Assembly (NCBI RefSeq): GCF_027587195.1
Contig: NZ_JAPDDP010000015.1
Span: 1 to 64,000, forward strand
Origin: Solirubrobacter phytolaccae
GTDB taxonomy: Bacteria; Actinomycetota; Thermoleophilia; Solirubrobacterales; Solirubrobacteraceae
Direction of reading: 5' to 3'
DNA: 64,000 bases
Part shown: in pieces, positions 14,759 to 17,829 of the stretch
How positions within the stretch are numbered: position 1 is the first letter of the stretch
Layout of the letters: each line of letters begins with the position of its first letter
Notes under the pieces: generated by a model
Told to the model about the DNA's origin: nothing
The model's database searches: none
Seen by the model: only the letters and a program-made list of their open reading frames with translations
Program-made: the position numbers and the translations under genes

Positions 14759-15817
14759 GTGTTGGTCGCGGAAGGGGCCAGGCCACGCTGCGTGCGGGTC
14801 CTGGTGGTCGAAGGTCATGAGGTGCTGGGCAACGGGTTGCGCTGGCTGCTGACGCGCGTGCCGTGGATCGAGCGATGCACGCTCGCCCACGAGCCGCAGG
14901 GCGGTTACGACCTGGCGCTGGTCGACGTCGGTCTCGGCTTGCCGATGTGCGAGCGCGTGGCCGCGACGGGCGCCCGCACCGCGCTGCTCACGTCCCGCTG
15001 GGACGACGTCTCGCTGCGCACCGCCCGGTCCGCCGGCGCGTTCGGCGTGATCTCCCGCGACCTCCCGGCCCGCGACCTCCTCGCCGCCGTGCGCACGCTC
15101 GCCCGCGGCGGGATGCCCGAGCCGCGCCCCGTCGCCGCCGGCGGCGGCACCCGCTTCACGCCACGCGAGCGCGAGATCCTGCGCCTGGTCGGCGCCGGCC
15201 TGACCAACGCCGAGATCGGCGCGGAGATGTTCCTCGCGCCCGGCACCGTCAAGCACCACATGCTCGGCATCTACGACAAGCTCGGCGCCCGCAACCGCGC
15301 CGGCGCCGTCCACGCCGCGCGCCGCCTGGGCATCGTCGCCGACCGCCGCGAGCCGTTCACGCCGCCCCTGGACCCCTTGCGAGTACTCGTCGCCGACCCG
15401 GTGGACGTGCGCCGCGCCGGCGTCCTGCTCGCGCTGCACGGCCGCCCGTGGGTCGAGGCCTGCGCGGGCGCGCGGACCCTCGAAGACGCGCGTGCCATGG
15501 CCGAGCGTCTTGATCCGCAGCTGGTCCTGGCCGGCACCCCTGACCTGCGCCTGCCCGGCATCCCGACGCTCGCCCTGCGTGAGGACGGGACGATTGAGCA
15601 GCGCGTCGAGAGCGACACGGGCTCGGTCTCCCCGCGTGAACGGGACGTGCTGTTCGCGTTCGCGGCGGGCGCGACGAACCCGGTCATCGCCACGCAGCTG
15701 GGCCTCTCACCGAACACGGTGAAGCAGCACGCTTCCTCGATCTTCCGCAAGCTCGGTGTGCGGAATCGCGCTGAAGCGGTGCGCCGGGCCGATGAGCTCG
15801 GCCTTTTGGCCGCGTAG
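14759..15817 (+). CDS. Double NarL-type response regulator (REC-HTH-REC-HTH)
   Basis: 352-aa protein that is two NarL/LuxR-type regulators fused head to tail. Half 1: receiver-like domain ~13-118 with a candidate phospho-acceptor D56 (DLALVDVGLG), then HTH ~131-190 (FTPREREILRLVGAGLTNAE, GTVKHHMLGIYDKLGARNRA). Half 2: receiver-like ~206-285, shortened and with A258/G259 where the aspartate should be (PQLVLAGTPDL), then HTH ~289-348 (VSPRERDVLFAFAAGATNPV, NTVKQHASSIFRKLGVRNRA). The two HTHs are clear paralogues. Receiver 1 also lacks the usual lysine (GVISRDLP). No kinase is adjacent. The start is uncertain: GTG 14759 or GTG 14795. The stop lies 5 bp before the large palindrome. Confidence 0.85.
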   Translation: MLVAEGARPRCVRVLVVEGHEVLGNGLRWLLTRVPWIERCTLAHEPQGGYDLALVDVGLGLPMCERVAATGARTALLTSRWDDVSLRTARSAGAFGVISRDLPARDLLAAVRTLARGGMPEPRPVAAGGGTRFTPREREILRLVGAGLTNAEIGAEMFLAPGTVKHHMLGIYDKLGARNRAGAVHAARRLGIVADRREPFTPPLDPLRVLVADPVDVRRAGVLLALHGRPWVEACAGARTLEDARAMAERLDPQLVLAGTPDLRLPGIPTLALREDGTIEQRVESDTGSVSPRERDVLFAFAAGATNPVIATQLGLSPNTVKQHASSIFRKLGVRNRAEAVRRADELGLLAA

Positions 15818-15822
15818 TTCGC

Positions 15823-16286
15823 ACGAACAACGGCCATCGAGGGGGAAGGGAGCTGCAGCGCCGCCCGCGCTGGCTTCGGTGGGCGCTCGCTCGGGCTCCG
15901 CGCGGTTCTTCCCTCGTGCCCGCGTGCCGGGATACCGTCAAGTTACGGGCACCGGAGATCGCGAGGAGCGGTTGTGGTTGCTTTCGTCCGCTACACGTCC
16001 GGTCGACCAAGGTCGCGCACGACCGCGCTCCGAACAAAGGGGTGTGGTCACAAACTCCCGCATAGCGGGAGTTTCCGACCACACCCCCTCCCCGCGCCCG
16101 TTCGTCGACCGGAAATCGATCACGCCGAGCCCAAGCGGGACGGCCGAGGGACGATCTTCGATGACCGTAACTTGACGGTAGGCCTGCACGGCGATTCTTC
16201 CCCGCCGCGCGGAGCCCGAGGGGCGATGTTCACCGCAGCGCGAGTGGCGCTGCCGCTCCCTTCCCCCCTCGATGGCCGTTGTTCGT
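15823..16286. repeat. 464-bp imperfect palindrome between convergent genes
   Basis: The only gap above 300 bp (15818-16302) is almost entirely one diverged inverted repeat. Matching blocks, outside to inside: 15823-15853 with 16255-16286 (31/32 nt, one-base gap in a G run), continuing through TGCAGCGCC / GGCGCTGCC; 15890-15905 with 16205-16220 (16/16, core GGGCTCCGCGCGG); 15933-15948 with 16165-16180 (16/16, TACCGTCAAGTTACGG); and 16039-16061 with 16065-16087 (21 of 23 paired, only ATA between them). Intervening DNA also aligns, with substitutions and small indels. It sits 5 bp after the double-regulator stop and 16 bp before the M28 stop. Open frames inside it look like by-products of the symmetry. 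It may be a MITE-like element or a very long RNA hairpin. Confidence 0.9.
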
Positions 16287-16302
16287 CCCTTAGAAGCGAA
16301 CC

Positions 16303-17829
16303 CTAGTTGTCCGTTCGCACCGGCAGCTCGATCGCGTCCTGACCGATGCCGCCGAACGAGCCCACGGCGTGCGCGAGCACGTCCGCGAAGTTGTCCATGC
16401 CGAACTCGCTCAGGTTGAAGATCGTGTCGCACCACTCGTGGTAGCAAGGATCGGCCTGGATGCCGACCTGGCCGCCGTACTTGGCGACGTGGTCCGCGGT
16501 CTTGACCGTCTCGGCGCCCGTGTAGAGGCCGGTCGCCGGGATGCCGCGGGTGCGGAAGCCCGCGTAGTCGGAGCGGTTGTCGAAGATGTACGGCGTCGAG
16601 TCGATGCCGAACTTCTGCTTGAGGTAGTCGATGTGGAGGCCGCCGAGGATGGTCTCGGCGCTGGGCACCGTGGCGCCGTCGGTGTAGACGAACGGGATGT
16701 AGTTCGTCGAGGCGATCATGTCGTAGTCGAGCATGCCCGCGAACTTGGACGTCTCCAGCGTGTTGAGCTGGTTGGCGTAGAACTGGGAGCCGTAGAGGCC
16801 CTGCTCCTCGCCGGAGAACCAGCCGAAGCGGATCCGGTACTTGGTCTGGATTCCGAGCTTCTTGAGCTGGCTGGCGATCGTGAGGTTCATCGCCGTGCCG
16901 GAGCCGTCGTCGTTGATGCCCGGGCCGGCGGCGACGCCGTCGATGTGGGCGCCGACCATCAGGATCCGGTTCGGGTCACCGGTGGTGGTCTCGGTGATGA
17001 TGTCGTAGTCGATCCGCTGGTTGATGTTGTTGTCGGTCTTGAAGTGGACCGTCAGCGGGGTGCCGGCCTGGGCGGCGTCGTAGAACTCCTTGCCGGTGGC
17101 GTAGGAGAGCGTCGCGGCCATCAGGCCCGGGTAGGTCTGGCCGACGACGCGCGTGAACGTCGTGCCGTTGGTGGTCGTGCCCGGCGCGGTGCGCAGCGGG
17201 GCCTGGCCCTCGTTCATGATGAAGACGGCCTTGGCGCCGTTGGCGCGGGCGTTGATCGCCTTCTCCAGGAACGTGCAGCCGCCGCGCTGGACCAGCGCGA
17301 TGTTGTCCTTCACAGCCGCCGGGAAGTCGCTCATCGCGCAGCCGGCGCGGGTGCCGTCAGCCGTGCCGACCGGCGGGACCGTGATCCGGTTGGCCGGGAT
17401 CACCTGGGCGGTGAGGTCACCGGTGTGGCCCCAGGTCATCTGGGAGAAGTCGCCCGTCAGGTTGAGGGCGTTCACGTAGGTCTTGGTGGTGCCGTCGGCC
17501 AGGGTCCGCTCGAGCACCGGCGGGGTGCGCTCGGCCCAGGTGTTCGGCGACGCCGTGTTCGCATAGGGCGTCAGCGTCGGGTTGTAGCCGAGGTCGCGCA
17601 GCTCGGAGATGACGTAGTCGATGCTCTCGAGGTTGCCGGCCGAAGCGGTCAGGCGATTGTTCTCGTTCGCCAGGCCGATCGACTGCAGGCGCTGCGCGTA
17701 ACGGAGGATCTCGCCACGCGTGACGCCGTCTCTCAGCGCCGTGGTGTCCGGGTCTGCCGCGTGCGCCGTGGCTGGGGCTGTGGCCCCGAGCACGGCGACG
17801 GCGAGCACCGCAAGGGTGGTCTTTCGCAC
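16303..17829 (-). CDS. Secreted M28-family aminopeptidase with PA domain
   Basis: 508-aa exported zinc peptidase. Signal peptide 1-24 (ends ATAHA). A PA (protease-associated) insert spans about 130-260 (DNIALVQRGGCTFLEKAINA, GAKAVFIMNE). The M28 core has its metal ligands in order: H295 in VGAHIDG, D307 in INDDGSG, the catalytic pair E341-E342 in FSGEEQG, D368 or D370 in LDYDMI, and H464 in CYHEWCDT, flanked by a probable disulfide C462-C467. Family members cleave N-terminal amino acids from peptides outside the cell. Convergent with the double regulator across the palindrome and divergent from the FG-GAP gene. Confidence 0.92.
   Translation of the reverse strand: MRKTTLAVLAVAVLGATAPATAHAADPDTTALRDGVTRGEILRYAQRLQSIGLANENNRLTASAGNLESIDYVISELRDLGYNPTLTPYANTASPNTWAERTPPVLERTLADGTTKTYVNALNLTGDFSQMTWGHTGDLTAQVIPANRITVPPVGTADGTRAGCAMSDFPAAVKDNIALVQRGGCTFLEKAINARANGAKAVFIMNEGQAPLRTAPGTTTNGTTFTRVVGQTYPGLMAATLSYATGKEFYDAAQAGTPLTVHFKTDNNINQRIDYDIITETTTGDPNRILMVGAHIDGVAAGPGINDDGSGTAMNLTIASQLKKLGIQTKYRIRFGWFSGEEQGLYGSQFYANQLNTLETSKFAGMLDYDMIASTNYIPFVYTDGATVPSAETILGGLHIDYLKQKFGIDSTPYIFDNRSDYAGFRTRGIPATGLYTGAETVKTADHVAKYGGQVGIQADPCYHEWCDTIFNLSEFGMDNFADVLAHAVGSFGGIGQDAIELPVRTDN

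Follow-up and report, generated by a model that had tools for sequence, protein, structure and literature searches.

A 464-bp palindrome between convergent genes of Solirubrobacter phytolaccae is probably one copy of a REP-like family built around a 51-nt apical hairpin

The gap between two convergent genes in the window, which is the whole stretch of 64,000 nucleotides of Solirubrobacter phytolaccae analysed here, is occupied by an imperfect palindrome of 464 bp. Copies of this palindrome are dispersed in the genome, and orthologous sites of relatives are free of it. Sequence comparisons indicate that it is, on balance, probably a member of a REP-like family of Solirubrobacter that is non-coding and apparently mobile. 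An apical hairpin of 51 nt would be the core of this family and would be recognised by its shape. A further-reaching version is put forward tentatively: the hairpin may be a mobile or exchanged unit defined by shape alone, namely a fixed foot, a fixed length of 51 nt and self-complementarity, with a stem that is free to drift and a putative structure-reading enzyme, and several mutually unrelated long palindromes may be centred on it.

Structure of the palindrome

The palindrome lies between the genes for a LuxR-type regulator and an M28-family peptidase (Table 1). The first-pass annotation had given its length and its distances from the two stop codons, and both are confirmed from the sequence (gene ends at 15817 and 16303). 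A reverse-strand self-match extends over the full length with 67% identity between the arms (E 2e-26). The two perfect 16-mers that had been reported as common to both arms are located at 15890/16205 and 15933/16165, in addition to a longer run at the ends. At the ends themselves, the earlier count of 31 matches in 32 positions holds when one G of the right arm is gapped, but without the gap only 26 of 32 positions match. The central hairpin had been described as 21 pairs in 23; the 21 pairs and the 3-nt loop stand, but the stem comprises 24 positions. Folding as RNA, which the first-pass annotation had proposed for both strands, gives -311.8 kcal/mol on the forward strand and -314.0 kcal/mol on the reverse strand (z -16.0 and -15.5), and none of 100 dinucleotide shuffles (0/100) is equally stable.

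The arms are not uniform. An alignment of 18 copies shows that the 60-70 nt or so flanking the apex on either side are conserved across copies yet asymmetric. The apex of the window copy starts with A, as against the family form GGGGGTG-N37-CACCCCC. Within the window, covariance model R1 of this module matches the apex alone, on both strands (57.5 and 56.3 bits). A search of Rfam with the palindrome returned nothing at or above the gathering score and just two microRNA matches below the threshold, and phage and plasmid collections gave no match of weight. With the element removed, the flanks (window positions 15818-15822 and 16287-16302) read GTTCGC...TTAGAAGCGAAC, possibly a small target hairpin that could also have arisen by chance.

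Table 1. Features of the palindrome and its two neighbours in the window
Feature	Position	Strand	Evidence or remark
Neighbouring LuxR-type regulator with two GerE stretches	14759..15817	+	Pfam PF00196; stop 5 bp from the element
Entire compound palindromic element ("A-type"), 464 bp	15823..16286	.	Fold z, genome copies, element-free relatives G003 and G006
Left terminal inverted repeat, with AACGGCC-YCGAGGGGGAAGGGAGC as the outer end that recurs in the family	15823..15854	+	
Left perfect 16-mer TACCGTCAAGTTACGG, best-conserved arm segment	15933..15948	+	12 exact matches in the window genome (G000); reversed control 0; variants present across the genus
Left shoulder GACCGCGCTCCGAACAA, conserved, asymmetric, adjoining the apex; orients the element	16021..16037	+	18-copy alignment
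Apical hairpin module, 51 nt, 21/24 pairs, loop ATA	16038..16088	.	Model R1, family analysis
Right shoulder, asymmetric, adjoining the apex (TCCCCGCGCCCGTTCGTCGACCGGAAATCGATCACG...)	16089..16130	+	18-copy alignment
Right copy of the 16-mer TACCGTCAAGTTACGG	16165..16180	-	
Right terminal inverted repeat, one G more than the left	16254..16286	-	
Neighbouring M28-family peptidase with PA domain	16303..17829	-	Pfam PF04389, PF02225; end 16 bp from the element

Dispersed copies, element-free sites and placement of the module

About a dozen related long copies are present in the window genome (7.74 Mb in 169 contigs), with identities of up to 94% and in unrelated surroundings. Relatives of the long element are also present in S. 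deserti (G001 and G002, which are one strain counted twice), S. soli (G005) and S. taibaiensis (G006), and no match was found in the genus members G003 and G004. Among 146 genomes of the family searched, the arm pattern occurs in no genus besides Solirubrobacter. Identity between copies of the long element is 80-94%, versus the 67% between the arms inside one element. The first-pass annotation had staked its reading on a search for copies in this genome and its relatives and on compensatory changes; the copies are found in both, and the compensatory changes are found as well (see below).

Four contigs of the window genome (C90, C132, C123 and C107, with loci L013, L015, L119 and L120) have one end within the element, at nearly the same point. 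The assembly is thus broken there, and the real number of copies is probably higher. Long copies at L012 of the window genome and L046/L047 of S. deserti lack the apical module, as if it had been deleted from the tip. At L008, L038 and L120 the palindrome seems to extend outward as further mirrored shells, such as GAGCTCAGCTCGGGTGGCGCGC, giving it the look of nested layers.

Because a close relative, G003, has the same convergent gene pair without the element, with both neighbours 97% identical and the stops 21 bp apart, the 464-bp element was probably inserted between the two genes. The element is likewise absent from S. taibaiensis, in which the stops of the same pair touch. Subtraction of the 464 bp from the window leaves 21 bp too, but on visual inspection they do not align with the 21 bp found in G003, so that the exact join is unreadable and the insertion is not clean. 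Six species were compared at a second site, which lies 3' of a conserved gene. This site holds a compound plus module in the window genome and a lone 51-nt module in S. deserti; S. taibaiensis has a short, unrelated hairpin there (AACTTAAAGGGGCCTGGCCCCTTTAAGTT), and G003, S. soli and G004 lack a module at this position. This comparison suggests that such hairpins may enter 3' sites independently, and a difference between modules at one site is therefore no proof of conversion in place. Three species have their arms in common at the site L010/L034/L041, and the modules are nonetheless different.

The apical module is a GGGGGTG-N37-CACCCCC hairpin of near-constant length with fixed feet and a very variable stem. 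Its constant length is partly inherent in the search model, but the apices of those copies that were identified solely through arm similarity are nearly all 51-52 nt as well: the general length is 51 nt, most copies in S. soli have 52, and a single S. taibaiensis copy has 50. Model R1 was built from alignment A1, a few rows of which were completed to five terminal G/C, affecting the conserved foot only. It matches in all seven Solirubrobacter genomes (7/7) and in several further genera of the family; under stricter filters, no match beyond the family was obtained among 399 genomes of the class. About 40 module places (80 matches on two strands) are present in the window genome, although such per-genome counts are rough, with limited candidates scored and both strands reported.

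Modules lie between genes and avoid divergent (promoter) regions. Over all genomes, 87 of 88 module places are intergenic according to a simple gene caller, and one is inside a predicted gene; 37 are convergent, 41 tandem, 4 divergent and 5 at locus edges. Divergent placement thus applies to 4 of 82 modules, versus 11 of the 51 gene pairs of the window, where 12 are convergent and 28 tandem (p 0.003). Besides lone modules and those within A-type arms, there are modules in compound palindromes of a second kind. This second kind was seen at L111, L113, L116, L174, L180 and L186 of the window genome and at L187, L188 and L190 of G003. Its shells include GGTGAGCCGGGTTCCCCGGACTGTGGAACGC and GTCGTCAGGAATTGCTTGACCCG, its crown bears one or two 51-nt modules, and the example at L116 folds with -274 kcal/mol over about 370 nt.

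Location between convergent genes or after stops, and rarely between divergent genes, also speaks for a function as RNA, in which the transcribed module or super-hairpin would have to fold and would serve as a (bidirectional) terminator or as a protector of mRNA 3' ends. The very stable fold of the palindrome on both strands points the same way. However, a search for T-tract terminators, in which a GC-rich hairpin precedes a T run, found none on either strand, no Rfam family is matched at gathering level, a terminator needs neither a length of 51 nt nor a fixed GGGGGTG foot, and relatives carry the same genes without the element.

Pairing and turnover of the apical module

The comparison of module sequences strongly indicates that pairing in the apical module is under selection. 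Among 81 distinct modules, inner pairs 8-24 are Watson-Crick in 1138 of 1377 cells (83%), versus 632 ± 15 (46%) in shuffles, and the number falls to 271-436 when the partners are slid by 1-3 bases. The stem is variable at every inner position across these modules, and yet the arms agree at 14.3 of 18 positions inside one module versus 8.6 between different modules. The test for compensatory changes proposed in the first-pass annotation is clearly positive, with 424 two-sided changes in the modules versus 132 ± 9 in shuffles. Only a weak signal comes from the long arms, where 29 two-sided changes compare with 22.8 ± 3.3 in shuffles, so the earlier view of a pairing core kept by selection for structure holds strongly for the 51-nt apical hairpin but only weakly for the long arms.

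G-T accounts for 39 of 239 non-Watson-Crick cells, which is about the level of random mismatches. On the sense strand of 41 tandem cases, G-T occurs 22 times versus 24 times for A-C (p 0.88), the power of this test being limited by its 46 mismatches. Because G-T is not favoured even on the sense strand, the pairing appears to be that of DNA rather than RNA. If an RNA hairpin were used in both directions, G-U would be disfavoured on one strand and A-C on its complement, and the absence of a wobble excess at convergent sites is accordingly not decisive in itself. Taken with the missing T-tract, this lack of tolerance for G-U over A-C on the sense strand speaks against the transcribed super-hairpin with a bidirectional 3' end that had been offered at first, and a function as RNA is rather unlikely.

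Correction of quasi-palindromes by template switching or conversion is an established process. Template switching or conversion within the palindrome could alter both arms together with no selection on pairing, and the absent wobble preference fits such a process at the DNA level. However, modules that are 1-4 bases apart show 125 one-sided and 4 two-sided changes, and the two-sided share of changed bases grows only with divergence (6, 12, 32, 47, 56 and 66%), these counts being descriptive because the module pairs are non-independent. Such a rising share is what slow compensatory selection would predict, unlike instant arm-to-arm copying. The arms of the long element have not been homogenised, being less alike within an element than between copies, and self-correction leaves the dispersal, the fixed foot and the fixed length unexplained. 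We therefore consider an origin of the pairing in such correction alone improbable. Instant copying from arm to arm is disfavoured by the one-sided differences of close modules, although slow correction could occur.

Modules share 21.5 of their 37 inner bases within a genome and 15.9 between genomes, in a comparison whose pairs are non-independent and whose p-value is nominal. At orthologous sites, modules share 12-23 of 37, which is about the between-genome mean, and with the closest paralogue of their own genome they share 20-37 of 37. Modules thus resemble paralogues more than their counterparts at orthologous sites, which suggests that the spread or conversion of copies within a genome outpaces their persistence at any one site. 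Module flanks were compared by blastn, all-versus-all tblastx being uninformative owing to low-complexity matches.

Candidate enzymes and related repeat families

The first-pass annotation had named a non-autonomous mobile element (MITE) among its readings. A classical MITE would be a deletion derivative of a DDE insertion sequence, with terminal repeats (the 25-nt arms or longer ends) that are read by its transposase, and the terminal inverted repeats, the dispersed copies and the absence of an evident coding role agree with it. However, the half-arm motif of the variants in the window genome has 51 genome matches that are essentially only inside 51-nt palindromes (reversed control 0), and this search revealed no insertion sequence sharing the module ends. 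Nor is there a target-site duplication at modules, where direct repeats at the ends are not above random pairing (the ends of the long elements were inspected by eye), and the arm sequence is not conserved as the site of a transposase should be. Thus, a non-autonomous mobile element is supported by the dispersed copies and the element-free gene pairs, but the strict sense of MITE does not hold for the modules, and there is only a slim chance that it describes the family. The idea that the module represents two insertion-sequence ends joined together was also considered and rejected, because the half-arm motif is essentially confined to the palindromes.

RAYT genes, which encode Y1 transposases, are present in 6 of 7 Solirubrobacter genomes; G004 has many modules and no RAYT. 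A search of the RAYT loci with R1 found no module in their flanks, where other hairpins of the TAAAGRGGGAC type are present. RAYT was therefore rejected as the cognate enzyme of the module, and the RAYT transposases present appear not to be the enzyme. No transposase or recombinase could be linked with the module. RAYT-like genes at L217-L229 and L236 have hairpins of their own, of type TAAAGAGGGACTGTCCCTCTTTA. In S. taibaiensis, a hairpin of this general type occupies a site that holds a 51-nt module in other species.

IS200/IS605-like transposases and integron integrases read folded DNA and leave no duplication. Because known enzymes of folded DNA leave no duplication, an enzyme that reads shape is preferred here. 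Integron attC sites are likewise folded single-stranded DNA read by structure, with little sequence conservation, but the module differs from them in its conserved feet and its dispersed placement. According to the preferred reading, copies would spread by insertion as units into 3' intergenic sites, through machinery that would act on folded single-stranded or cruciform DNA and read the foot, the length and the pairing rather than the inner sequence. The stem would drift, and either compensatory changes would restore its pairing or only well-paired copies would spread. The long arms would be further palindromic elements around the module.

RAYT-associated, GTAG-tagged REP/BIME sequences are short intergenic palindromes in many copies, mostly in convergent or unidirectional gaps near 3' ends, and have been proposed to be non-autonomous mobile units that are recognised as folded single-stranded DNA (PMC2817692, PMC3733652). 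The module resembles them in being intergenic, present in many copies, near 3' ends, represented by genome-specific variants and incorporated into compounds. In contrast, it is 51 nt long versus 20-40 for REP, it bears no GTAG tag, its inner stem is hypervariable with compensatory changes, other hairpins flank the RAYTs of these genomes, and in G004 modules occur in the absence of any RAYT. No common tag of the GTAG or CGTC type that defines REPs was found in the module flanks. The module works like a REP but is not classed as one, for want of the tag and of the association with a transposase. CGTC-tagged REPs are also REP-like palindromes without a dedicated transposase, but they have a stem of 8-9 bp, a CGTC tag and a CCA tail, whereas the module has a 24-bp stem and a GGGGGTG foot (PMC3733652).

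Other stem-loop families, among them YPAL of Yersinia at about 169 bp, are likewise described as long intergenic palindromes forming one stable stem-loop; YPAL is far shorter than 464 bp, and the description consulted makes no mention of a separate hypervariable apical module of near-constant length (PMC2267715). Hairpin elements of mitochondria multiply in intergenic regions, singly or in larger copied blocks, with no known enzyme, but they are organellar, and their stems are conserved and their loops variable (two types), which is the reverse of the module (PMC2800124). Among open-licence papers, no description of the module family was found, nor anything relevant on palindromes in Solirubrobacter.

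Long palindromes are expected to be unstable, and their survival here is of interest. The family raises testable questions as to which enzyme, if any, reads the folded DNA, and whether it is mobility, the ending of transcription or neither that maintains bacterial palindromes in convergent gene gaps. Most repeat families are read by their sequence, whereas in this family the sequence drifts and it is the length, the feet and the pairing that are retained. The module family would thus constitute a natural record of selection on folded chromosomal DNA.
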